Source of the DNA: Kouleothrix aurantiaca
GTDB taxonomy: Bacteria; Chloroflexota; Chloroflexia; Chloroflexales; Roseiflexaceae
Length of the DNA: 14,116 nucleotides
NCBI GenBank assembly: GCA_001399705.1
Contig: LJCR01000020.1
Location: forward strand, 1-14,116
Direction: 5' to 3'
Part shown: piece by piece, positions 935 to 14,116 of the stretch
Numbering within the stretch: the first letter of the stretch is position 1
How the letters are laid out: each line of letters begins with the position of its first letter
The notes under the pieces: model-generated
Database searches by the model: none
What the model was told of the DNA's origin: nothing
What the model saw: the letters and a program-made list of their open reading frames with translations, nothing else
Program-made: the position numbers and the translations under genes

Positions 935-3708
935 TCAAACATCTTCTCCATCCTCGGGTCGATCTCCGGCCAGTGGCTCTGTGCGAATACGCAGCGGCCG
1001 GCGCCCATTTTGCCGCTGCGGCTCGCTCAGGTCAAAGTGGTAGCTCCCATGGAAGGTGATGTGCTCCCATAGTAGCGGCGTCACATGCTGGAGATCGGCC
1101 TCGTTGATCGGATAGCCTGTCAGTCGTAGGTGGTCGATCGCGTCCATCATATAGCGCGTGTTCCAGACCACGATTGCGTTGATGATCAGGCTCATACAGG
1201 TCGCCCGGTTGAGCTGGCTCAGGTAATCACGTTCGCGGAACAGTCCTTGCTGCCCGAAGAATACCTCGCGCGCCAGGGCATGCAGCAACTCGCCCTTATT
1301 AAGCGTGTGGTGGATGCGCCGGCGATAATCCTCGTCGCTGATATAATGCAACGCTGCGATCGTCTTGAAGACCCGCCCCAGTTCTTGAATGCCTGAAGCT
1401 TGCTCACCAACAGCTGCGCCGTGACCGTCCCGTCCTGGAGCGAGGCCGCGATCCGGTGCATCTCGTCCCAATTGGCCCGGATGTGCGCCCGATTGATCCG
1501 CGGCCCCCGAAAGAGCGGCCCAAGGGTGCCGCGACGGTGCTCGCGCTCCATCGGGTAGAGAATCTGGGATGGCAGATCCCGGATGCGCGGCGAGAAGATG
1601 CGGCTCTCCAGCTCGAACAGCCCGAATATCAGCTCCGTGTAGCCATGGGTATCGGTGAAATGTTCCTTAATCGGCAACTCCGTCTCATGATGCAGTGCCG
1701 CGTCCAGCACGGCCGCCGACTCGCGGATATCACAGCGAATAACATCCAGATAGGGCTGCGACCCCTGATCGCTGGTCATGTCGTAGACCGTGACGCCGCG
1801 GGTGCGCGTGGGCAAGCGCGGGTTGTGCCGCGCATAGAGCGAGCGTGCGGTGACACCGAAGCGGATGCCATCCGACATCGCTGAGGTACCGGGGCCAAAG
1901 GTGGCGGCCAGCGGCAGGCTGTGGTGATAGTCCACCAGTGCGATGATCGCCTGGCGGATGGTCGCCTCGCGCATGTACCAGTCGGCGGTATGGACGAGCT
2001 TGTGGTACGAGAGGCCAGACGCCTCGGCCATCGTGGCCAGCGGGAGGTTGCAGCCCTGAGCCAGAATCACCGCGAAGATGCACATATCCAACAGTACATC
2101 TCGCCCAGTGGCGGGCTGCCGCATATCTGCGTTGGGGTGGGTGAAGTGCTGGCGAAAGGGGAGCCAACTGTTCACTTCGATGAGCAGCGCCGGCAGCTTC
2201 ACGCGCGGCAGCAGTTCGACGATCGCCTTGCGCAAGGCTTTGGCACTGGCGGGGATCTCGATCTTCTCATCGCGAGAAAGCACGAGTTGGCCGTCCTCGA
2301 TGCGTGCAAAACTGTTCTCCTCCCAGGTATCCTCCACCTGCTTCAGCGCGGCGGCGAAGCGCTCGGCCACATGGTCGAGATAGGTATCCACGTTTGGAGA
2401 ACCATGCCAGGCATCAAACCAGTTCGCCCGCCGCTCGGCCCAGGCTGCCTGGGGATGTAGGTAGCTCTCCCAGTCGCGGTGCTGGCGGCTACCCGGCACC
2501 AGAATGTCGGCCGAGCGGAGCTGGCGCCGCAACTGCTCGGCCAAGCCCAGCATCCACAGTTGATGGTCGATCGTGTCAGGGCTGGGGCACACCACAGAGC
2601 GCCAGCGATCATCCAGAAAGCTGAGCGGTACCTCGGGCGGCAGCTTCTTCCATCTGGGTTTGGTCGTATCGAGGTGGTTGATGAACGCCAGCGCATCCAA
2701 GGTGGGGCGCGCCGCATCCGTGCCGGTGAAGGGGATGGCATCGAGTACATCGACCAAAAACGAGCGTAGGTGACTGTACCGCTTGACGACGAAGGCAAAG
2801 ATATTGAAGTCTTCTGGCTGGACCAGCGCGGCCGACTCGTCGTAGGCGCGTTGCAGCGCCTCCGCGGGGATCGCGCCGAAGGCCTGCTGGCGCACCTGGT
2901 CATCGGGAATGTCCCGGTCGAGCACAATCGCCGTGATGGTGCGGAAGAGGATGAGCTTCGCGTTGATGTGCTTGCCCTGCTGCTTGAACTCCTCATCGCG
3001 CTCCTTCTCGGACTGGCTGAAGATCCGGCCGATCAGGACATCCAACATCTCGATAATGTCGTCTGTAACCTCCTGGATAAGATCCTGGAGCAAGCAGACC
3101 AGGATGACATAGCGTTTGGGCGGATCGAACCGCTTGAGGGAGCCGGCGTGGTAAGAGTGCCCGAGTTGGGCGAACTGGCGCACACGATTGCGATTGAGCA
3201 CACGCAGATCCAGGTCGGTCACGGTCAGCGCAAGGATCGTGGCGCGCTTGCTCAACAGTTCGCCAATGGCATTGACCGAGGCAGCAGGCGCGGCGGTTTT
3301 CAGCCAGGCAAAGGTCGAGCCGCGCCGCCCTTGCGAGCGCGTGAGCAGGGCTTCCAGGTTCGCAATCTGGGCGGGCTGGAGTTGGCGCATGACCACCTGC
3401 TGAATCTGCTCCTCGGCAACCATGCGTGCGTATCCAACCAGGCGCTGGAGGGTGCTGACGGCCGGGAAGAGGATGCGGGCACGGCGCAGCCAGTCCTCAG
3501 CTTCGGCGATCAGGACACCAGCGTCGTCGCGGTGCATGGCGCGCTGGATCAGATAGGTGCGCAGTGCATCGCTGTCGGCTGCTGCGTAGGACCGTAACCC
3601 CAGGTAGGTGCGGATCTGCGCGACGTGATCATCGCGGGTTTGTGGGCGGGATGCGTAGGTGGTCAATGCAGAGGGGTTAATGTCGAGTTGGAGGCTGATA
3701 AAATGGAT
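935..3708 (-). pseudogene. tnpA: Tn3-family transposase TnpA, 5'-truncated and frameshifted
   Basis: This is the DDE transposase that would act on the 38-bp ends of its transposon. Reading continues upstream of a TTG at 3666 through LQLDINPSALTTYASRPQTR to the IS1595 junction at 3708. That corresponds to the middle of the N-terminal DUF4158 region, so about 60-90 residues are missing. The central part shows the first two catalytic aspartates in SDGIRFGV and YDMTSDQGSQPY. At about 1374-1380 one base is missing (AAC TGG GGC GGG against the expected RVF frame). The true C-terminus continues in another frame from GRVFKTIAALHYISDEDYRRR through LNKGELLHALAREVFFGQQG, which holds the third catalytic residue (E of NKGE), down to a stop at 935. 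The frameshift separates that glutamate from the two aspartates, so the enzyme should be inactive. The indel lies in a short C run, so an assembly error is possible. Confidence 0.95.
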
Positions 3709-3731
3709 GGCTCAATAGTACAACTAGTGCA
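3709..3731 (+). repeat. IS1595 left terminal inverted repeat
   Basis: These 23 bp pair with 4663-4685 with two mismatches. A possible -10 box (TATACT, 3739-3744) for the transposase lies just inside, without a convincing -35. Confidence 0.9.
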
Positions 3732-3751
3732 AACTTGGTATACTACCGGGT

Positions 3752-4682
3752 ATGGATTTTCCAATTCTTACTCTGCTGGATACCGAGGCGAGCGTCGCCT
3801 GGATCGAACAGCATTTCCATCCGGATGGCTTTGGCTGTCCACATTGTCAGGCCAGCCTGGCCCACGCGCGCTTGTTCCGTATCAATCGCGGTAGTGGTCT
3901 GCCAGTCTATCGCTGCCGAAACTGCCAAGGCGTCTATACGCTCTATACTCGCACGATCTTCGAAGGCGCGCAGCTGTTGCCCACCCAAGTGGTCTTGCTG
4001 CTGCGTGGCGTGTTCCACGGTCAGTCCAGCGCGCAACTCGCACGCGAGCTCGACCTGACCGAGAAAACAGTCCTGAAATGGCGGCATCGCCTGCACGACC
4101 GTGCCGAGGCAATACAACCCGACACACCACTGCCGGATAGTGCGACTGAGAGCGACGAAATGTTCCAGAACGCCGGGGAAAAAAAGTGACGAGCATTTCA
4201 ATCCGGCTGACCCACCGCGCTGTCGGGCGAATAAGCGGCGCGGACGTGGCACATATGCTAATGACCGGCCGCCGATCCTGGGAACTGTGGGACGCGTGAG
4301 TGGACAGGTGCGTCTGCGGGTGGTCCTGGACACCAAACAGACCACGTTGCGCGCGCATGTAGAGCAGTTTACTGGAGCAGGAACGCACGTCTATACCGAC
4401 GAATACGAGAGTTACGCGACGATTGCGCGACCACATGCCACGGTGTGCCACGCGGCACGGGAATGGGCGCGTGATGCGGACGGTGATGGGACGCGCGAAG
4501 CACACACCAACAGCTGTGAAGGCCTGTGGAGTGGATTGCGGACATATTTGCGCGTGTTCCGTGGCGTGCATAAGGCCTATCTCAGCGGCTATGTGGCGAT
4601 GCATGAGTTTCGGGTCAATTTGAAAGCGGTCAGCGAGTTGTTCGTGGCTGCTCTCGTTACCGTGCACTACTTGTACTCTTGA
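3752..4682 (+). pseudogene. IS1595-family transposase, split by frameshift at A7
   Basis: This is an ISXO2-like DDE transposase. The N-terminal zinc ribbon is clear (CPHC near residue 32 and CRNC near residue 55). A helix-turn-helix region follows (SSAQLARELDLTEKTVLKWRHRL), then the start of the catalytic domain, SDEMFQNAGEK. The first frame stops at TGA 4187-4189, just after a run of seven A (4179-4185). The protein continues one base out of frame as DEHFNPADPPRCRANKRRGRGTY through DEYESYATIARPH and HTNSCEGLWSGLRTYLRVFRGVHKAYLSGYVAMHEFR, the conserved C-terminal motif. Six A residues would restore one reading frame of about 310 codons. Either this is an inactivating one-base insertion, or transcriptional slippage on the A7 run yields some full-length protein. 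IS1595 elements are not generally known to use frameshifting, so I favour a mutation. There is no strong ribosome binding site before ATG 3752. Confidence 0.9.
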
Positions 4683-4685
4683 GCC
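4663..4685 (-). repeat. IS1595 right terminal inverted repeat
   Basis: This is the reverse complement of 3709-3731 with two differences. It contains the transposase stop codon. Confidence 0.9.
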
Positions 4686-4777
4686 AAAGTATTAGGCTAT
4701 GAGATTAGTTCAGGAAAGTGCCACCACGAGAAGTTCGTTGCATTGGGAAGCTCTAAAAAAGCAGTCAGCTTCGGTGC
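4686..4777. other. Short stretch between IS1595 and IS3; former downstream flank of the membrane-protein gene
   Basis: These 92 bases are neither IS1595 nor IS3. Joined across the GTGC duplication to 6990 onward, they supply the last two codons (CGA AGC) and the TGA stop (4767-4765) of the interrupted membrane protein gene on the minus strand. A T6 run on the minus strand follows that stop closely (4762-4754 region), but I see no strong stem. A small minus-strand open frame across this stretch is judged fortuitous. Confidence 0.65.
4774..4777 (+). repeat. 4-bp target site duplication (GTGC), left copy of IS3 no. 1
   Basis: GTGC lies directly outside the TGACATGAG end and is repeated at 6986-6989 directly outside the other end. 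A 4-bp duplication is usual for the IS407 type of IS3 element. Confidence 0.85.
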
Positions 4778-4829
4778 TGACATGAGACCCAAGAACTGGT
4801 CAAGTCCCAATGTTATAGCGGTTTGCGGA

Positions 4830-5779
4830 TCACTTGAGCATTGGCGATGAAACGAGATAGCCACAATGGTCGAAGAATGCACGGGCGTCAGCCGATGTGA
4901 TTGTGGCAAGTGCTTCCGCAATGGCCGCTTCAAGCGCCTCTTTGGTGCGAGCCGCTGCACGCCGTACCGCCTGTTTGATCTTGGCGAATGCCAGTTCAAT
5001 CGGTGTGAGGTCAGGTGAATAGGCCGGCAAAAACCAGACGTCACACTGCTTGTGCGCAAGCAACGGCTCCAATCGCGCACGTTTGTGGGCACTGAGATTG
5101 TCAAACACCACGATTTGGCCCTTTTGCAGCGTTGGAGCAAGAACGTGTTCGACATATGCTTCAATCGCCAAATGGTCGGCACCGCCCTCGAAGAGCATTG
5201 GCGCTTGCATGCCCGCAGTCGACAGGGCGGCGATCAAGGTCGTATTGGGTGGTGTATTCCGGGGTGTTTGCTCAGACACACGTACGCCGGCAGGCGCACG
5301 TCCATAGCGTGGCGTCATATCAAGGTTATAGCCGGTTTCGTCAACGACGACGAATGCTTCAGCCGCGTGTTGCAGGATGCGCAGGCGATAGGTACAGCGC
5401 AGACCTTCGTCACGCTCGAGCGCAGTCAGGCTCTTTTTTTTCGTGGCAAGCCGATGGTGGCAAGCGTGCGGCACATTGTCGCTTGGCTGACGCGCACACC
5501 GGTTTGTTGCGCCCATGCATCGCACAGGTGGGCGAGTGTGGCATCGGGGCCAGCAGCAACAAGATCGGCCAGGGCTGGATGCTGGGTGCTGGGAATGGCA
5601 GGCTGCGGGCCACCAGCGTGTGGACGCGCGGCCAAACTGTCGGAGGTACGGTGCTGTTTGAGGTAGCGCGTCAAGGTGGATTGCGAAATCTGGAAGATGC
5701 GCAGCACGTCGGCTCGCGACAGCCCTTCCGTCACTGCCGCAACCACGCGTTGGCGTAAATCGAGAGAATAGGCTTTCAT
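4830..5779 (-). CDS. IS630-family transposase, OrfAB by -1 frameshift
   Basis: This Tc1/mariner-type DDE transposase cuts and joins at TA. The start chosen is ATG 5779, giving MKAYSLDLRQRVVAAVTEG, the usual IS630 opening, rather than an upstream ATG at 5803. The first frame holds the paired helix-turn-helix DNA-binding region (GLSRADVLRIFQISQSTLTRYLKQ, then VSQATMCRTLATIGLPRKK) and stops at TGA 5426-5428. The second frame continues KSLTALERDEGLR with the catalytic triad intact: D in VVVDETGYN, D in IVVFDNLSAHK, E in SPDLTPIELAFAKIKQ. It ends SSPMLK at 4830. A run of eight A at 5441-5434 (minus) contains the slippery A AAA AAA G. A -1 slip gives the continuous sequence LPRKKKSLTALERDE, as in other IS630 members. 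Total length is about 317 residues, normal for the family, so it is potentially active. Confidence 0.93.
5434..5441 (-). promoter_or_regulatory. Programmed -1 frameshift site of IS630 transposase
   Basis: Eight consecutive A on the minus strand followed by G give the slippery heptamer A AAA AAA. The first-frame TGA comes two codons later, and the second frame is open at that point. Sequence and position are those expected for IS630-family translational frameshifting. Confidence 0.8.
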
Positions 5780-5799
5780 GCGCACAGTATGCCATATAC

Positions 5800-6651
5800 T
5801 CAATCCGTTTGCAAACCGCTATAGGGATCCTGCGATTTTGTTTGGGCTTCGAACCAGGCCGCTTTGAATTCCAGCGGCGTGAGATAGTCGAGCTGGCTGT
5901 GCGGTCGCTCAGTGTTGTAGTGCCGCCGGTACGCGCCAAGCCGAACCGATGCCTCAGCCAGTGAGGTGAAGACGTGCAGATTCAAGCACTCGTCGCGCAC
6001 CGTCCCGTTGAACCGTTCCTCCTTTCCATTCTGCCACGGCTTGCCTGGCTCGATGTAGAGAGTCTGGACACCATACTGCACCAGCCACGTCTGTACGGCT
6101 ATCGCCACAAATTCCGCACCATTGTCACTGCGCAGATAGGCCGGTGCCCCGTGCTGTCCAACCAAAGCCGCCAGCACGCCGATCACTCGTTCCGCCGAGG
6201 TCGTCAGCGCCACATCGAGCGCCAGCCCTTCGCGCGTGAACTCATCCATTACTGTCAGAATGCGCAGCGGCGTGCCGTCGGCCAAGGCATCCTCGACAAA
6301 ATCATAGGCCCAAATATGGCCAGGATAGGCGGCCTGCAAGCGCTCCGGGCGCGTGCGGCGCGTGCGCTTGCGCACGACACGACGTACTTGCATCCGATGG
6401 AGCCGCCACAATCGGCGCACGCGCTTGTGGTTGACCGTCTCGCTGCGATTGAGCAGGGCGTTGATCCGGCGATAGCCGTAGCGCGGGTGCTGAGCAGCCA
6501 AGGCCTGCATTTGGTTCACCAACACGGTATCGTCGGTTGGGTGTGCGGCGTAGCGAAAGGTCGAGCGATAGATTTGCACCAATGCACAAGCGCGGTGCAC
6601 CGACACGCCGCCATGTACGAAGAACTGCACCGCCTCGCGTCGCTCGGTCAT
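5800..6651 (-). CDS. IS3-family transposase OrfB (IS3 no. 1), stop codon lost to IS630
   Basis: This is the catalytic half of the IS3 (IS407-like) transposase. An HTH_21-like helical region lies at the N-terminus (HPRYGYRRINALLNR). The rve integrase core follows, with D in IWAYDFVED, D in LRSDNGAEF and E in PWQNGKEERFNG, and the typical C-terminus YNTERPHSQLDYLTPLEFKAAW. The frame is normally entered by a -1 slip from orfA, although an ATG exists at 6651. The original protein ended KSQDP with TAA formed by the TA at the terminal repeat. The IS630 insertion on exactly that TA changed CCC TAA to CCC TAT AGC, adding SGLQTD before a TGA at 5800. The six-residue tail may be harmless to the enzyme. 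The interrupted left end is the likelier handicap for mobility. Confidence 0.93.
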   Translation of the reverse strand: MTERREAVQFFVHGGVSVHRACALVQIYRSTFRYAAHPTDDTVLVNQMQALAAQHPRYGYRRINALLNRSETVNHKRVRRLWRLHRMQVRRVVRKRTRRTRPERLQAAYPGHIWAYDFVEDALADGTPLRILTVMDEFTREGLALDVALTTSAERVIGVLAALVGQHGAPAYLRSDNGAEFVAIAVQTWLVQYGVQTLYIEPGKPWQNGKEERFNGTVRDECLNLHVFTSLAEASVRLGAYRRHYNTERPHSQLDYLTPLEFKAAWFEAQTKSQDPYSGLQTD

Positions 6652-6653
6652 CG

Positions 6654-6923
6654 TCAGCCCTTTTTTGAGAGCAACTCTTTGAACAGATCAAGTTCGAGCA
6701 CGCGCTCGGCCAGCAAGCGCTTGAGACGTGCATTCTCTTTCTCCAGTTCTTTGAGCCGTTGCGCCTCATTGACCGACATACCGCCATAGGCTTTGCGCCA
6801 GCGATAAAACGTATTCTCAGCAATCCCATGTTCGCGACACACGGCGGCAATCGTCTGCTCACCCTTCTCAGCTTGCTCAAGGATCTTGATGATCTGTTCG
6901 GCGGTATGCTGGTTGGTTTTCAT
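6654..6923 (-). CDS. IS3-family transposase OrfA (IS3 no. 1)
   Basis: This is the DNA-binding half of the transposase. Starting at ATG 6923 gives MKTNQHTAEQIIKILEQAEKG. A helix-turn-helix follows (IAAVCREHGIAENTFYRWRKAYGG), then a leucine-zipper-like coiled coil (AQRLKELEKENARLKRLLAERVLELDLFKELLSKKG). A strong ribosome binding site (AAGGAGGA, 6935-6928) lies 4-5 bases upstream and favours this ATG over the upstream in-frame one at 6953. The stop at 6654 follows immediately after the slippery run. With the -1 slip the product continues as GLTMTERREAVQ into OrfB, giving a full OrfAB of about 370 residues. Confidence 0.93.
   Translation of the reverse strand: MKTNQHTAEQIIKILEQAEKGEQTIAAVCREHGIAENTFYRWRKAYGGMSVNEAQRLKELEKENARLKRLLAERVLELDLFKELLSKKG
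6660..6666 (-). promoter_or_regulatory. Programmed -1 frameshift site A AAA AAG of IS3 no. 1
   Basis: On the minus strand TCA AAA AAG GGC TGA ends orfA. Slipping back one base at A AAA AAG yields GGG CTG ACG ATG, in frame with orfB. This is the canonical IS3-family signal. Confidence 0.85.
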
Positions 6924-6946
6924 GTCGTCCTCCTTCTTGGAGGATC

Positions 6947-7513
6947 CTAACATATCAATCTGGCCAGTTTGTTGGTCTCATGACAGTGCAACCGTCCAAC
7001 TATGGAAAGGCCAAGAAATACCATGATGCTCAGGACAATAAAGGCAACAATTGCGACTATTAATGTAGCATTATTGAAGCAGTATTTCCCAATCGGTTGC
7101 AGATCAATAGTGCTCCCACGGATAGCGAATGTTTGTGTCCCAAAAGATTCGGGCACTACACATGTCGTTGTGAATTGGCCATCCCAGTGGAATGTCTCTA
7201 TCACATTGGCATAGCGCATTAGGCACCATCCGGGAATCATTCTTTGCAGACGATAGATGGCGAACCCATATTGAACTGCAACCTCCTGATCCTTTGAAAG
7301 ACAGGCTGCGAAGTCGATATTAGTGTGACCTCGTAGTTCACTAACAAAGACAGGAGCAATATTTCTATTGTATAAGTAGAGAGATACTACATAAATCGCG
7401 ATCATTGACAGAAACAGACTGGTGAATGCACGTAGATAGCGATTTTGTAAGAGTACCATATAAGGAATCATTAGCAATTGGTTCTCAAAGATTACCCGGA
7501 CTAAAATCATCAC
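6947..7513 (-). CDS. Small two-helix membrane protein, C-terminus altered by IS3
   Basis: I do not recognise a family. The protein has an N-terminal hydrophobic helix (residues about 30-48, AFTSLFLSMIAIYVVSLYLY). A mostly polar, probably extracytoplasmic loop of about 95 residues follows, with four or five cysteines. A second helix lies near the C-terminus (ATLIVAIVAFIVLSIMVFLGLSIVG). IS3 no. 1 is inserted after codon 176 (CAC, 6988-6986). The present frame runs 12 residues into the IS end (CHETNKLARLIC) and stops at TAG 6947. Joining across the GTGC duplication gives the ancestral end RLHRS-stop at 4765, so only two residues were replaced by twelve and function may persist. It begins 18 bases after the lipoprotein gene, suggesting one transcript. 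No clear ribosome binding site supports the first ATG; ATG 7471 is an alternative start. Confidence 0.65.
   Translation of the reverse strand: MMILVRVIFENQLLMIPYMVLLQNRYLRAFTSLFLSMIAIYVVSLYLYNRNIAPVFVSELRGHTNIDFAACLSKDQEVAVQYGFAIYRLQRMIPGWCLMRYANVIETFHWDGQFTTTCVVPESFGTQTFAIRGSTIDLQPIGKYCFNNATLIVAIVAFIVLSIMVFLGLSIVGRLHCHETNKLARLIC
6986..6989 (+). repeat. 4-bp target site duplication (GTGC), right copy of IS3 no. 1
   Basis: Identical to 4774-4777 and directly adjacent to the CA terminus of the element. Confidence 0.85.
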
Positions 7514-7531
7514 TTAACTATAAGATAAACT

Positions 7532-7987
7532 CTACTCAATCTTTACCTCAATGCCACCAGCGTCAAAGGTGTGAACTGTCGCCTGATTGTCCACTCTGAT
7601 CTCTAGTTCATCATGCATTTCAGCAGTGGCTGTCGTTGGTACAGTTACTCTAAATGGTAATTCAAAGTGTTGCTCCGGTTCAAGCGTAATTGTTAGCGGT
7701 AAGATCTGCTCAAGTGTTATCCAGCCAAGCGCCGATTGCTCCATTGGTGCAGTGATAGTATATGTGTCATGTTTCGTGCCATCATTTATGATAGTCATAT
7801 GATATGAACCAGTCGCTCCAGGCGACATATGCAAGGAGTCCTTGCTGACGCTAACATGGTACTCCCGCGATGGAATCTCATCCGCATCGACTCCGGGTTG
7901 TGATGAGACGAGTCGGTTTTGGCACGCTAGAAGACTGAGACTGAGCGTCAGAGTCAGGATGGCCCTGGTGAAGATACGATAGCTCAT
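7532..7987 (-). CDS. Lipoprotein with NEW3-like beta-sandwich domain
   Basis: This 151-residue protein has a signal peptide (MSYRIFTRAILTLTLSLSLLAC) with lipobox L-L-A-C at residues 19-22, so it should be lipidated and held on the outer face of the membrane. Residues about 45-150 form one immunoglobulin-like domain: PGATGSYHMTIINDGTKHDTYTI, ALGWITLE, ITLEPEQHFELPFRVTVP, DELEIRVDN. It resembles the NEW3/COG1470 type of domain found in surface glycoside hydrolases and adhesins. The same domain occurs in the neighbouring giant protein, aligned without gaps over PG...HDTYTI. The start is well supported by AGGAGG (7998-7993) five bases before the ATG. A TATAAT (8016-8011) and a 12-bp hairpin lie just upstream. 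Domain homology to the neighbour is directly visible; the family name is from memory. Confidence 0.8.
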   Translation of the reverse strand: MSYRIFTRAILTLTLSLSLLACQNRLVSSQPGVDADEIPSREYHVSVSKDSLHMSPGATGSYHMTIINDGTKHDTYTITAPMEQSALGWITLEQILPLTITLEPEQHFELPFRVTVPTTATAEMHDELEIRVDNQATVHTFDAGGIEVKIE

Positions 7988-8220: not shown

Positions 8221-8249
8221 CTATTTCAGTATTATGGCGAGATTGTTGC

Positions 8250-10290
8250 CGCCCCCGTTCGCAACCGCTAAGTCTAAGGCCGTATCACCATTGAAATCAC
8301 CGGTCGTAACGTACATCGGAGCCCTCCCGACCGCATACTGGATCGCCGTCTGGAAGGTGCCATTGCCGACGCCCAGCAGTACGCTCACATTGTTGCTGCT
8401 CTGATTCGCAGTCGCCAGGTCAAGCTTGCCATCTCCATTGAAGTCACCGGTTGTGGCTGAATAAGGAAGGTTCCCGACCGCATATTGAACCGCAGCCTGA
8501 AAGGTGCCATTGCCGGCACCCAGAAGCACGCTCACATTGTTGTTGCTCTGGTTCGCAGTCGCAAGATCGAGTTTGCCATCTCCATTGAAGTCACCAGTCG
8601 TGACTGATTGAGGATAGCTACCAACGGTATATTGGACTGCGGCCTGGAAGGTGCCGTTGCCGACGCCCAGCAGCACGCTCACTCTGCCAGTGGTATAGGT
8701 CATACCAGCCAGAGCCAGATCGAGTTTGCCGTCCCCATTGAAGTCGCCAGCCGTGACCGAGCGCGCAAAGTTCCCGGCCGAATACTGAACCGCCGTCTGG
8801 AAGGTGCCGTTGCCAACGCCCAGCAGCACGCTCACATTGTTGCTGCTGCTTTCGTTCGCAGTCGCAAGGTCGAGTTTGCCGTCCCCGTTGAAATCACCCT
8901 TTGTGACCGTCCAAGGAAGGTTCCCGACTGCATACTGGATCGCCGTCTGGAAGGTGCCGTTGCCGACGCCCAGCAGCACGCTCACATTGTTGCTGCTATT
9001 GTTCGCGGTCGCCAGGTCAAGCTTGCCATCCCCGTTGAAGTCGCCAGTCGTGACTGATCGAGGAGAGTTAGCGACCGAGTAGGCACCTACTGCCTGGAAG
9101 GTGCCATCACCACTGCCCTGCAGCACACTCACGTTGTTGCTGCTCTGATTCGCAGTCGCCAGGTCAGGCTTGCCATCTCCGTTGAAGTCACCGGTCGTGA
9201 CCGCCCAGGGATAGTTCCCGACCGCATAATGGACAACAGCCTGGAAGGTGCCATCACCGCTGCCCAACAGCACGCTCACATTGTTGCTGCTATTGTTCGC
9301 GGTCGCCAGGTCAAGCTTGCCATCTCCGTTGAAGTCACCGGTCGTGACCGATTGAGGAGCGTTAGGGACACCATAGTTGCTTGCCGCTTGGAAGGTGCCG
9401 TTGCCGACGCCCAGCAGCACGCTCACATTGTTGCTGCTATTGTTCGCGGTCGCCAGGTCAAGCTTGCCATCTCCGTTGAAGTCACCGGTTGTGAGCGATT
9501 GAGGAACGAGAGGGACACCATAGTTGCTTGCCGCCTGGAAAGTGCCATCGCCATTGCCCAGTAGCACGCTCACGTTGCCGCTGGAGTTGTTGTAATAGTT
9601 CGCGGTCGCCAGGTCAAGCTTGCCATCTCCGTTGAAGTCACCGGTTGTGACCGAATAAGAAACGCCACCGACCGCATATTGCACCGCAGCCTGGAAAGTG
9701 CCATTGCCAGCACCCAGCAACACACTCACGTTACTGCCGAAGTTTGCGGTCGCCAGGTCAAGCTTGCCATCTCCGTTGAAGTCACCGGTTGTGACCGAAT
9801 AAGGATTGCCACCAACCGCATATTGAACCGCGGCCTGAAAGGTGCCATTGCCGGCACCCAGCAACACACTCACGTTGCTGCTGTTATAGTTTGCGGTCAC
9901 CACGTCAAGTTTGCCATCCCCGTTGAAGTCACCGATCGTAACCGATTGAGGTGCATTAGGGACAGTGTAGTTGCTTGCCGCCTGGAAGGTGCCGTTGCCG
10001 ACGCCCAGTAGCACACTGACGTTACTGCTGTAGTTGCTGCTGTTATAGTTCCCAGTAACCAGGTCAAGCTTGCCATCTCCGTTGAAATCACCAGTCATGA
10101 CCGCATAAGAATTGCCACCGACCGCATACTGCACCGCAGCCTGGAAAGTCCCGTTGCTGGCACCCAGCAACACACTCACGTTGTTGCTGTTTTTGTTTGC
10201 AGCAACCAAATCGAGAAGACCATCGCCATTGAAATCACCGGTTGTGACCGATTGAGGATAACTGCCGACAGCATAGGTGTTGGCAACTCG
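8250..10290 (-). repeat. Tandem coding repeats, 14 units of about 148 bp
   Basis: The FG-GAP units are recognisable at DNA level by recurring sequence such as TTGAAGTCACCGGT and CACGCTCACATTGTTGCTGCT on the plus strand. Neighbouring units differ mainly in the linker (AVGGNPYS, VPNAPQS, VGNLPWT) and in insertions of two to six residues. Near-identity between units suggests recent duplication or gene conversion and makes copy-number change by recombination likely. Confidence 0.9.
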
Positions 10291-10566
10291 AAATAGTGGC
10301 CTGTTCTGATCCGCCTTCACCTGTAATATACCGCTTTCAGCAGTGTTAGCAATTGTGGCGCTCTGCACACCTAGTTCCAATTCATCGACCACGCCTGTGA
10401 GCGCACCAAACGGTACTGTTATCGTTAGTGGGAACGTCGTTTGTTGTCCTGGCTCCAGCATCACTGTCACTGGTGTCGTGCTAAATGTCATCCAGCCAAG
10501 CGATGAGGAGGGCGTCTGCGGTGCAATTGTGTAGGTATCACTCATGAGACCGGTGTTTTTTACGAC

Positions 10567-10569
10567 GAG
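10567..10569 (+). repeat. 3-bp target site duplication (GAG), left copy of IS3 no. 2
   Basis: GAG lies directly outside the TGAAGTTGACCC end and matches 11822-11824. IS3 elements commonly duplicate 3-4 bp. Confidence 0.8.
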
Positions 10570-10640
10570 TGAAGTTGACCCGCTTTCATGGACACCTCGA
10601 ATGGGGTATGATTGGAAACCACAAAAGAGGAGCCATGATC

Positions 10641-10916
10641 ATGGGAACACGACGAACCTACACCGACGAATTCAAACAGGAAGCCATCAAACTCGCGACT
10701 GAGCACGGACTGACCCGCAAGCAGGTCGCGCGCGACCTTGGCATCGACCCACAGACCCTGCGCTCGTGGTTGCATGCCGCTGACGGCTCGCCTGCCGCAA
10801 CCCCGGCCGCCGACACCGCCGAACTCGCCCGTCTGCGCCGCGAGAACGACCAGCTGCGCATGGAACGCGATATTCTAAAAAAAGCGCTCGGCATCTTCTC
10901 GCGGATGCCACAATGA
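10641..10916 (+). CDS. IS3-family transposase OrfA (IS3 no. 2)
   Basis: This is the DNA-binding subunit. ATG 10641 gives MGTRRTYTDEFKQEAIKLATEHG and lies 8 bases after GAGGAG (10627-10632). The ATG at 10635 is too close to that site, and the open frame upstream is only the IS end. A helix-turn-helix (LTRKQVARDLGIDPQTLRSWLHA) is followed by a coiled coil (AELARLRRENDQLRMERDILKKALGIF). The stop overlaps the orfB ATG (ATGA, 10913-10916). The domain layout fits the IS51/IS150 type of IS3. Product length is 91 residues, or OrfAB of about 390 after the -1 slip. Confidence 0.93.
   Translation: MGTRRTYTDEFKQEAIKLATEHGLTRKQVARDLGIDPQTLRSWLHAADGSPAATPAADTAELARLRRENDQLRMERDILKKALGIFSRMPQ
10877..10883 (+). 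promoter_or_regulatory. Programmed -1 frameshift site A AAA AAA G of IS3 no. 2
   Basis: CTA AAA AAA GCG in orfA slips to AGC GCT CGG and continues as SARHLLADATMNQKYQ into orfB. This is a canonical IS3-family position, 33 bases before the orfA stop. Confidence 0.85.
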
Positions 10917-11791
10917 ACCAGAAGTATCAGTTCATCGCCGCCCACGCGAAGGAGTATCCCGTCACTGTGGTGTGCCGGGTGCTCGGGCTGGCGCGCAGTG
11001 GCTACTATGCCTGGAAACGTCGAGCGCCCAGTGCGCACGCGCGACGCGATCACCAGTTGCTTGACCAGATCCAAACGAGCTTTACGGCCAGTCGGCGCAC
11101 GTATGGCAGCCCGCGCGTGCACGCCGACTTGCGTGCACAGAACGTGCGCTGTGGCCGGAAACGGGTCGCGCGTCTGATGCGCGAGGCGAAGCTGGTGGCA
11201 CGCACACGCCGCTGTCGCACGCCGCGAACGACCGACAGTCGGCACGGCCTGGGGGTTGCACCGAATGTCCTTGACCGCCAGTTTGCGGTCGAGCGACCCA
11301 ATCAGGCGTGGGTCAGTGACATCACGTATCTGCCGACGCGCGAAGGCTGGTTGTACCTGGCCGTGGTGCTGGATTTGTATGCACGACGGGTGGTGGGTTG
11401 GTCGATGCAGCCGACGCTGGAGCGGAAGCTGGTGCTGAGTGCGCTTGCAGACGCGATCGGGCGACGGCAGCCGCCACGTGGGATGCTGCAGCACAGCGAC
11501 CGTGGCAGCCAGTACGCGAGCGGCGAGTATCAGGCGCTGCTGGCGAGGCACGGGATTGTGGCGAGCATGAGCCGGACGGGCAACTGCTGGGACAACGCGG
11601 CGATGGAGAGCTTTTTCGCGACGCTGAAGGCCGAGTTGCCACAGATAGAGTTTGCAAACCACGCAGAAGCACGCAGCGCGGTGTTCGACTACATCGAGCG
11701 GTTCTACAATCGCCAGCGCCGCCATTCGACGCTGGACTATCAGACACCGCTTGCGTATGAGCTGGAGTTTGCTTCGAGCCATGCCGAATGA
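10913..11791 (+). CDS. IS3-family transposase OrfB (IS3 no. 2)
   Basis: This is the catalytic part, 292 residues. An HTH_21-like region (RTYGSPRVHADLR, VARLMREAKLVAR) precedes the rve core. The intact triad is D in QAWVSDITYLPT, D in MLQHSDRGSQYAS and E in NCWDNAAMESFFATLKAE. The C-terminus is the usual YIERFYNRQRRHSTLDYQTPLAYE. The length is normal for IS3 OrfB. The ATG at 10913 overlaps the orfA stop. The main product is expected to be the OrfAB fusion, with separate OrfB as a possible minor or regulatory product. Confidence 0.95.
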   Translation: MNQKYQFIAAHAKEYPVTVVCRVLGLARSGYYAWKRRAPSAHARRDHQLLDQIQTSFTASRRTYGSPRVHADLRAQNVRCGRKRVARLMREAKLVARTRRCRTPRTTDSRHGLGVAPNVLDRQFAVERPNQAWVSDITYLPTREGWLYLAVVLDLYARRVVGWSMQPTLERKLVLSALADAIGRRQPPRGMLQHSDRGSQYASGEYQALLARHGIVASMSRTGNCWDNAAMESFFATLKAELPQIEFANHAEARSAVFDYIERFYNRQRRHSTLDYQTPLAYELEFASSHAE

Positions 11792-11821
11792 TCCTGTGTC
11801 CATGAAATCGGGTCAATACCA

Positions 11822-11824
11822 GAG
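11822..11824 (+). repeat. 3-bp target site duplication (GAG), right copy of IS3 no. 2
   Basis: Adjacent to the CA terminus at 11820-11821; same as 10567-10569. Confidence 0.8.
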
Positions 11825-13989
11825 TGTGTAGAGAAAGCTCGTTCCGGGCCGCACCAGTATCGTTCCTTCACCTTGCACCGTAACATCATAAGCGCGCATG
11901 AGCGGGATAAGCTCGTCGTCAGCGGCATCATGCGATATGTATTCAGAGGCAGGGTCTGGATCGGCAGTTATACCCGGCCTGCCAATCGGGCCGTTATCAT
12001 ACTTGAGGTACGGCCAATCCGCAAAGCCTCTCAAGGTATCCGATGCCGACGCCGCTGGCTTGTTCTTCGGACGGTTAATATCAGCCTGCACGGGATTATC
12101 GTTGGCGTCACCATCGCAGTTCCAATCAAGGTTTATGGCGGGTTTTAGTTTATCGTCACACCAGTATTGTGGAAGCTTATAGTTATATTGTGATGGCACA
12201 CCAACCAGTTCATCAAGCTGATTCTCGACCAAATTGTTGAGCTGAGAACGCGAGTAGTCAATCACCATGTCATACCGGTTAGTCCCTTGTTGTTTCAGAA
12301 GGTTGCCTACCTGGTATGCATAGTTCATCACACTGAAATAGTTGGGCTTGTAGTTTTGATCCCCAACTTCGGCTGAGGTCGCCAATCCCAAGTCGACAAG
12401 CTTAGTTGGGCCGCCGTGATCTAAGCTAAGCGCATGGCCCAACTCATGCATTAGCGTGCCCGCCTGCCCAGCAACATCATTATATTTCCAATTGGAAACA
12501 GCAAGTGTTACTAGTGTAATTATCCTGCCATTCAGGAATGTAAAGGTATTGCCAGTTGAGGTCGAACTCCCAGTCCAGCACTGCTGTCCATCCTGGGGCG
12601 TATTCATATATGTATGGCCGAACACCGCATATCGAAACACCGGCAAGCGCTCTCGCGCCAAATGTGTCTCAAGGAGTGCAATAGTCTCCAGTTGAGTTTG
12701 ACCGGGGCCATAGCAGTTTCCTCGGATGACAGATGCGTATGGAATCTCTGTCCCTTGTGAAAGAGCGCCCCATTTCGCTCCAGTTCTTGGGTTCATTATG
12801 CTGTTTGGGCCAGCATCAATGTGCAGATCTATGCCGCTAACGCCATCAGGATTGTTCACTGGCGAGTCGGTAAAAGCTTGAGTAACCAACTCGAGCGCTA
12901 CAGCGTAAGGCTTATGGCTTCGGGCTACACAGCCGAAAAACAACAGCGTACATTCGCTCGTATCAGCCATCCAATCGGCTTCAACAAAAATGTCTTTGTG
13001 GTCAGGATGGGCACCCATCGCCGGAAGATCGACAATATGCGTCGTGCCGCTAGAATCGACATACTGGTAGCCATTGATCTCCCAATCATCTGGCAGCGCA
13101 TCACAGTCCGTGTCGATAGGGGTAGTACCAGCAATGACTTCTAGTCGATTTGCCAGGCCGCCGATTCGCATGTCATTTGTGATTGGCACTGCCTCCCAGG
13201 TTGTGCAGCCGTTGGTGAGGACTTGAACTTCCGTGTTACCGCCAACAATCGCCGCGACGATTGCGTGATTTTTGCGATCGGCGCGAATGAAACCAGTCGA
13301 ACTTGTCCTGGCTGACACAGGTGTAACAACTGGTGTCCCCAGCACGTTATCCACGCGCTGGATGCCAGTTCCTCCGGCCACATAGACTGCGCCGTCACGA
13401 GTCGGCGCGACATATCCGCCGCTCACATCGACGCGGTGGGTTAACGCAGCTACATGGTAATCTCCAGTCGCCCAAAGCCCAGAACCACCACCCCACGGGA
13501 CACCGACGAGACCCCGCGATCCCTGCGCTCCTGAAGTCCATGGCAGGCGCTCAAGATAATTCCAGAAGGTAATCCAAGGGCCATCTGTGTAGCCAGCTAC
13601 CACATTCGTGCCAGCCTCCACATACCCAACACGCGCCGAGTCGATACCGTTGCCACGTATGTCGTGGATGACTATCTCGCCGTTCGCACCAGGAAGAGCT
13701 GATGTCTCTCCTGTCCCTCGATCTGGACCGAAGAGAATAATCGAGGTTGATCCACTGCCAACCGTGCCGCGGGTTAGCACCTCGTAGCCATCCCGCTCAA
13801 TTCGATCGATTCCCCAAGCCAGCATCCACTGACCATTGACCGTCTCACTCCACTCGACGCGGCGGATTCTAATCTTTTCAGTCAGGGATCCAGTGGCTGG
13901 CAAAGCGACGGCAGTCCAGGTTTGCCCGGCGTCTTGCGTCAGCCAGAGAGGTGTGGTTGCGCCATCAGCCATGACTACAGAGCCACCGT
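11822..13989 (-). pseudogene. Giant surface protein, 5' part: BNR-like region and metzincin-like peptidase
   Basis: About 722 codons remain between two IS3 elements. The region opens with BNR/sialidase-type propeller motifs (LWLTQDAGQTWTAV at the start, TTWEAVP later, with Gly-rich strands between). A calcium-site motif TDCDALPDDWEINGYQY comes next, then HPDHKDIFVEADWM. The zinc site HELGHALSLDH (12448-12431) follows, with a Met-turn in KPNYFSVMNYAYQ, and then DYSRSQLNNLVENQLDELVG, as in bacterial metzincin-like secreted peptidases. The consensus HExxHxxGxxH has Ser in place of Gly here. The region ends RPGTSFLYTL, the first strands of the NEW3-like domain. After that the frame meets a TGA three codons into IS3 no. 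2. The N-terminus, with the signal peptide, is missing because another IS3 end replaces it at 13990. The TTG at 14014 lies in that IS and is not the true start. Peptidase activity is inferred from motifs only. Confidence 0.85.
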
Positions 13990-14116
13990 TGACATGAGCC
14001 CTTAAAACTGTCAAGTCCCGGTGAGAGGATCTGCCTGGTTTTGTTGCGCTTCACTCCACGCAGCGCGAAATGCGTGTGGTGTGAGATAGCCAAGACTGCT
14101 ATGCGGTCGTTCGCTG
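13990..14116 (-). mobile_element. IS3-family element no. 3 (IS407-like), end only, continues past the window
   Basis: The end TGACATGAGCCC...AAACTG.TCAAGTCCC parallels the left end of IS3 no. 1, with two single-base gaps. Inside it is the same layout (GGATC near the orfB end, then the ERPHS...YLTP coding motif). It is related to but clearly not identical with no. 1, and has the same orientation. The other end and its target duplication are outside the window. Confidence 0.85.
14011..14116 (-). CDS. IS3-family transposase OrfB, C-terminal 34 residues (IS3 no. 3)
   Basis: The minus-strand frame entering at the window edge reads SERPHSSLGYLTPHAFRAAW, then SEAQQNQADPLTGT, with a TGA stop at 14013-14011. 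It matches the end of OrfB of IS3 no. 1 (TERPHSQLDYLTPLEFKAAW) and many IS3 transposases. It is partial because the window ends here. Confidence 0.9.
   Translation of the reverse strand, partial: SERPHSSLGYLTPHAFRAAWSEAQQNQADPLTGT

Follow-up and report, generated by a model that had tools for sequence, protein, structure and literature searches.

Are the two large minus-strand open reading frames (ORFs) found in 14,116 nucleotides of Kouleothrix aurantiaca DNA (contig LJCR01000020.1 of assembly GCA_001399705.1; hereafter the window) two unrelated genes, or are they the remains of one? They lie on either side of an insertion sequence (IS) of the IS3 family, and a first-pass annotation had proposed that removal of this element restores a single giant gene. 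Our analysis led to the same answer: the locus very probably arose by insertion of an IS3 element into an existing large metallopeptidase gene, with a second IS3 element lying across its 5' part. The inserted element, its ends, the target duplication, the split domain and the end of the second element can all be read directly in the DNA. The interruption comprises the following features.

10570-11821, plus strand: IS3-family element of 1252 base pairs (bp), the second of the IS3 elements numbered in the first-pass annotation
10635-10916, plus strand: orfA of the element (start picked by eye), with an A7 run at 10877
10913-11791, plus strand: orfB of the element, a DDE transposase (rve)
10567-10569: GAG, the 3-bp target duplication on the left side
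11822-11824: GAG, the 3-bp target duplication on the right side
11822-13989, minus strand: upstream (N-side) piece of the gene, about 722 codons, with IS3 elements on either side
8221-10569, minus strand: downstream (C-side) piece of the gene, first ATG at 10545, inside an immunoglobulin-like (Ig-like) domain
11825-11899, minus strand: beginning of the Ig-like (NEW3-like) domain, matching profile positions 2-26 with 11.4 bits
10327-10563, minus strand: remainder of the same domain, profile positions 29-104, 54.4 bits

The identity of the element is clear. orfB matched the NCBIfam model transpos_IS3 (NF033516) with 367.8 bits (cut-off 160), and orfA scored 58.7 bits against this model, under the cut-off, and 61.7 bits against the helix-turn-helix model HTH_Tnp_1 (cut-off 24.1). 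The termini read TG...CA, and the terminal inverted repeats are identical at 22 of 27 bases. GAG flanks the element on both sides, and IS3-family elements duplicate 3 to 5 bp of their target. With its helix-turn-helix orfA, its rve DDE orfB overlapping it, its TG...CA ends, its 3-bp duplication and its length of about 1.25 kb, the element shows no notable difference from the IS3 family, and it has the ends and the duplication initially ascribed to it. Matches of any kind were found in 18 of the 82 genomes of the order (the bin that contains the contig counted), those of at least 500 bp showing 66-72% DNA identity; two matches in one genome reach query base 1252, in agreement with the right end of the element. 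The A7 run at 10877 may be a site for the programmed frameshift by which IS3-family elements produce OrfAB. The IS genes are oriented opposite to the interrupted gene.

Joining 45 nucleotides from each side of the insertion gave one open frame through the site, as had been predicted. Furthermore, the two pieces share one Ig-like domain. Its profile was built from 13 of 17 aligned homologues, the window being excluded and four homologues without an alignable domain dropped, and it was searched against the unjoined pieces, the downstream one read from 10566. The tail of the upstream piece matched positions 2-26 and the downstream piece positions 29-104; positions 27 and 28 are filled by one leftover residue on each side, such that there is no gap. 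None of 2000 shuffled upstream tails reached the profile score of the real tail. We conclude that a single gene was split by the element because the target is duplicated, the domain profile is shared out between the pieces without a gap, and homologues encode the peptidase together with the Ig-like domain in a single frame (see below).

The resemblance of the junction to a neighbouring lipoprotein was also borne out.

7532-7987, minus strand: lipoprotein carrying a single Ig-like (NEW3-like) domain; lipobox identified by eye

This protein matched the Ig-like profile over positions 3-103 with 65.6 bits and aligned with the downstream half-domain at 30 of 78 identical residues (38%; BLASTP, E 2e-15), in agreement with the alignment reported earlier. 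The idea that the peptidase is regularly accompanied by a small Ig-like protein was rejected, as none of 80 peptidase loci, with flanks of at most 8 kb, had a frame of 80-260 codons with an Ig-like domain beside the peptidase.

What did the gene encode before it was broken? The domains are listed below; residue numbers follow the ORF at 11813-14014.

13079-13114, minus strand: calcium-binding type motif D-x-D-x-D...D-x-W-E, residues 301-312
11963-13114, minus strand: metzincin-like peptidase core, residues 301-683, 318 bits with a profile from 17 homologues
12416-12448, minus strand: predicted zinc-binding motif HExxHxxxxxH, residues 523-533
8224-10302, minus strand: fourteen FG-GAP repeats spaced 48-53 residues apart

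The metzincin zinc-site motif is HExxHxxxxxH/D. In 18 sequences (window counted), the calcium-motif residues D301, D303, D305, D309, W311 and E312 are invariant, and so are H523, E524, H527, H533 and, downstream, M563; judged from sequence only, the protein therefore has both the zinc site and the Met-turn (M563) of metzincins. The repeats scored 486.4 bits with the FG-GAP models of Pfam (PF13517/PF01839; cut-off 26.9), and their number of 14 was confirmed. For the putative BNR-like propeller of the N-side, no Pfam family reached E 1 with its strongest segment in residues 1-290, and residues 1-297 were modelled at a predicted local distance difference test (pLDDT) value below 50. The structure model of the window piece (pLDDT 44.3) had no significant Foldseek match.

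Homologues were examined in two sets. The first comprises 177 proteins, namely the best 120 of 3921 and 57 further ones, among them a twin of the window frame (P0122); 17 of the 177 had served to build the profiles. The second comprises the best 80 of 465 relatives from a scan of genome contigs, from which records close to the genome of the window may be absent. The peptidase core was present in all 177 proteins and all 80 kept loci, and an Ig-like domain follows it within 60 residues in the same frame in 116 of 177 proteins and 12 of 81 genome ORFs. Peptidase and FG-GAP repeats occur in one protein in P0016, P0111 and P0101. P0016 has the order of the window, in that the calcium motif precedes the peptidase, the Ig-like domain follows it, and the FG-GAP repeats come last, behind an additional stretch; P0111 and P0101 carry the repeats ahead of the peptidase. 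It follows that the two parts are not always separate, the case that the first-pass annotation had set against a single gene. The window-type FG-GAP profile matched none of the 81 genome ORFs, a weak zero since P0016 and P0111 were likewise missed; a loose count of FG-GAP motifs flagged one ORF of 3446 residues. As far as these sequences indicate, the joined architecture occurs elsewhere yet is uncommon, and the FG-GAP part is likely to have been acquired independently.

Several observations weigh against the reading of one interrupted metallopeptidase gene. The GAG repeat taken alone is weak, with a chance of 1 in 64, and the upstream half-domain scored only 11.4 bits, falling to 5.5 bits when the entire piece was used. 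The zinc motif of the window is without the Gly of the usual metzincin consensus. Among 301 genomes of the phylum, 9 had a relative of the peptidase, as did 4 of the 82 genomes from the order, none of them close enough to provide an intact copy usable as an empty site: the longest match in the order is 41% identical (residues 294-726), with short segments up to 52%, and the best segments in the genome-contig scan reached 37% at most. The only other genome of the genus (71% complete) had no peptidase relative. A second copy in the bin is possible, since the output of the order search was without the window's own locus. Furthermore, peptidase and FG-GAP repeats are rarely joined (3 of the 177 listed proteins), none of the best 120 of 8000 FG-GAP relatives had a peptidase or Ig-like domain, and the contig belongs to a draft bin from a metagenome (3843 contigs, 7.8 Mb in total; completeness 83.5%, contamination 7.5%), such that contig artefacts are possible on sequence alone.

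The last three points bear on two rival explanations, both of which we consider very improbable. If a peptidase gene and an FG-GAP gene had always been separate, with the IS merely between them, the 174 of 177 listed peptidase relatives that lack FG-GAP repeats and the 120 best FG-GAP relatives that lack a peptidase would be accounted for; a single Ig-like domain would not be shared by both pieces with no position lost, the first ATG of the C-side piece would not lie inside that domain, and the tail of the N-side piece would hardly score above all 2000 shuffles. Similarly, an assembler could have joined unrelated loci through a repeated IS, as might be suggested by the 3843 contigs of the bin and by the repeat that closes the contig. 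However, the bin gave a single match to the IS, at the window itself and over 1246 of its 1252 bases, and a chance join would not produce equal GAG repeats together with complementary halves of a domain.

The single gene has also lost its beginning, as described for the right end of the window.

13990-14116, minus strand: 3' end of a further IS3-family element, which cuts off the N-terminus of the gene

Read from 14116 to 13990, this segment encodes the end of an IS3-type transposase (identified by eye). The identical 127 bp open C2513 and C591, two other contigs of the bin; because all three sequences diverge directly behind base 13990, the element was taken to end there. This suggests that the contig stops where the assembler met a repeat at a word length of 127. 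The first part of the gene was not found, and no signal peptide was seen by eye in the upstream piece, no predictor having been run. The N-terminus is thus absent, as first noted; it does not merely lie off the contig, as the IS3 end takes its place.

We propose that the ancestral gene encoded a large, probably secreted metallopeptidase that would have bound calcium and zinc, with a metzincin core, an Ig-like domain and 14 FG-GAP repeats. Transposition of an IS3 element into this gene would have duplicated 3 bp and broken the Ig-like domain in two, and a second, different IS3 element over the 5' part would have removed the start and the export signal. The intact ancestor was presumably exported and proteolytic. 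The present pieces are most likely non-functional and their product dead, because the gene lacks its start and the second piece opens within a domain. We see very little prospect for a functional split, in which two proteins reassociate or precise excision switches the gene on: the twin P0122 suggests an IS end elsewhere in the gene, which fits a mobile or rearranging element, but the 5' part of the gene is missing too and the IS genes run antiparallel to it.

P0122 (598 residues; NCBI, two contigs) is identical to the window frame over residues 16-610, and its final two residues are those that the IS end of the window encodes before its stop. The simplest reading, taken as a lead only, is that P0122 may carry the same IS end, 363 bp upstream of the insertion site in the window (window position 12185), as the result of another insertion or of an adjacent deletion. 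A short deletion between two CACAATA repeats 21 bases apart could partly account for the last residues of P0122 as well; it was rejected because the final residue and the frame end would then require an additional change, whereas an IS end accounts for both. That the same IS3 broke the gene repeatedly in the population, while a different IS3 cut the 5' part, appears rather unlikely. If true, it would mean that a costly secreted protease was inactivated repeatedly, by selected loss or as an on/off switch, rather than by a single accident.

The protein was compared with known systems. It is under the Pfam cut-offs of adamalysin/reprolysin metzincins (PF13582/PF13688; ADAM17, bothropasin), and PF13582 just passes for P0016 and P0004 and fails for P0002, P0003 and P0101; the N-terminal calcium motif and long conserved segments are the window group's own. 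P0002 of Herpetosiphon giganteus, one of the choice-of-anchor L proteins (NF038133), shares the calcium motif, peptidase core and Ig-like domain; it carries Calx-beta in place of FG-GAP, and the window piece is without an anchor-L domain in NCBIfam. P0016 (1083 residues, metagenomic), which shares the order of the domains, differs by the extra stretch before its FG-GAP repeats and by their subtype; its N-terminus is incomplete, with PD40 propeller repeats ahead of the peptidase. The calcium domain of clostridial binary toxin B and protective antigen (PF03495) shares D-x-D-x-D...WE, with 19.7 bits over 21 residues (cut-off 25). The best PDB match of the alignment profile was C2 toxin component II (E 5.6e-7), in which only the calcium motif aligns well. 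Membership in the toxins was rejected, as PF03495 stayed under its cut-off and no other toxin part matched.

Beyond the interrupted gene, a cluster of mobile elements occupies 935-6953 of the window, next to a frame at its left edge.

9-686: frame with a Germane (PF10646) domain
1219-3666 and 935-1471: Tn3-type transposase in two overlapping frames
3752-4682: IS1595-like pieces
4814-5823: inverted repeats of an IS630 that sits at the end of an IS3 element with frames at 5800-6953

The bin also holds a second FG-GAP gene (contig C3260, 1-2400), which has Thr-Pro repeats and is 53% identical over 344 repeat residues. Visual inspection of its 739 codons, in a frame that continues past the contig end, revealed no peptidase motif, and with its Thr-Pro repeats it was set aside as a different protein.

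Overall, the locus represents ordinary IS-mediated gene decay. Its annotation can be corrected, as two seemingly unrelated genes are fragments of one, and a Chloroflexota gene for a large, probably secreted protein is seen in decay through several mobile elements. Among the best 80 of 465 loci, the peptidase core itself is spread over many bacterial phyla and also occurs in one archaeal bin, and a query of core plus Ig-like domain retrieved 3921 proteins at E 1e-5 among 7998 scored, some of which may match the Ig-like domain only. The members scanned had no dedicated peptidase model in Pfam or NCBIfam, and within open-licence literature we found no paper combining FG-GAP, metallopeptidase and Chloroflexi. 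This widespread group of peptidases may merit more attention than the insertion.
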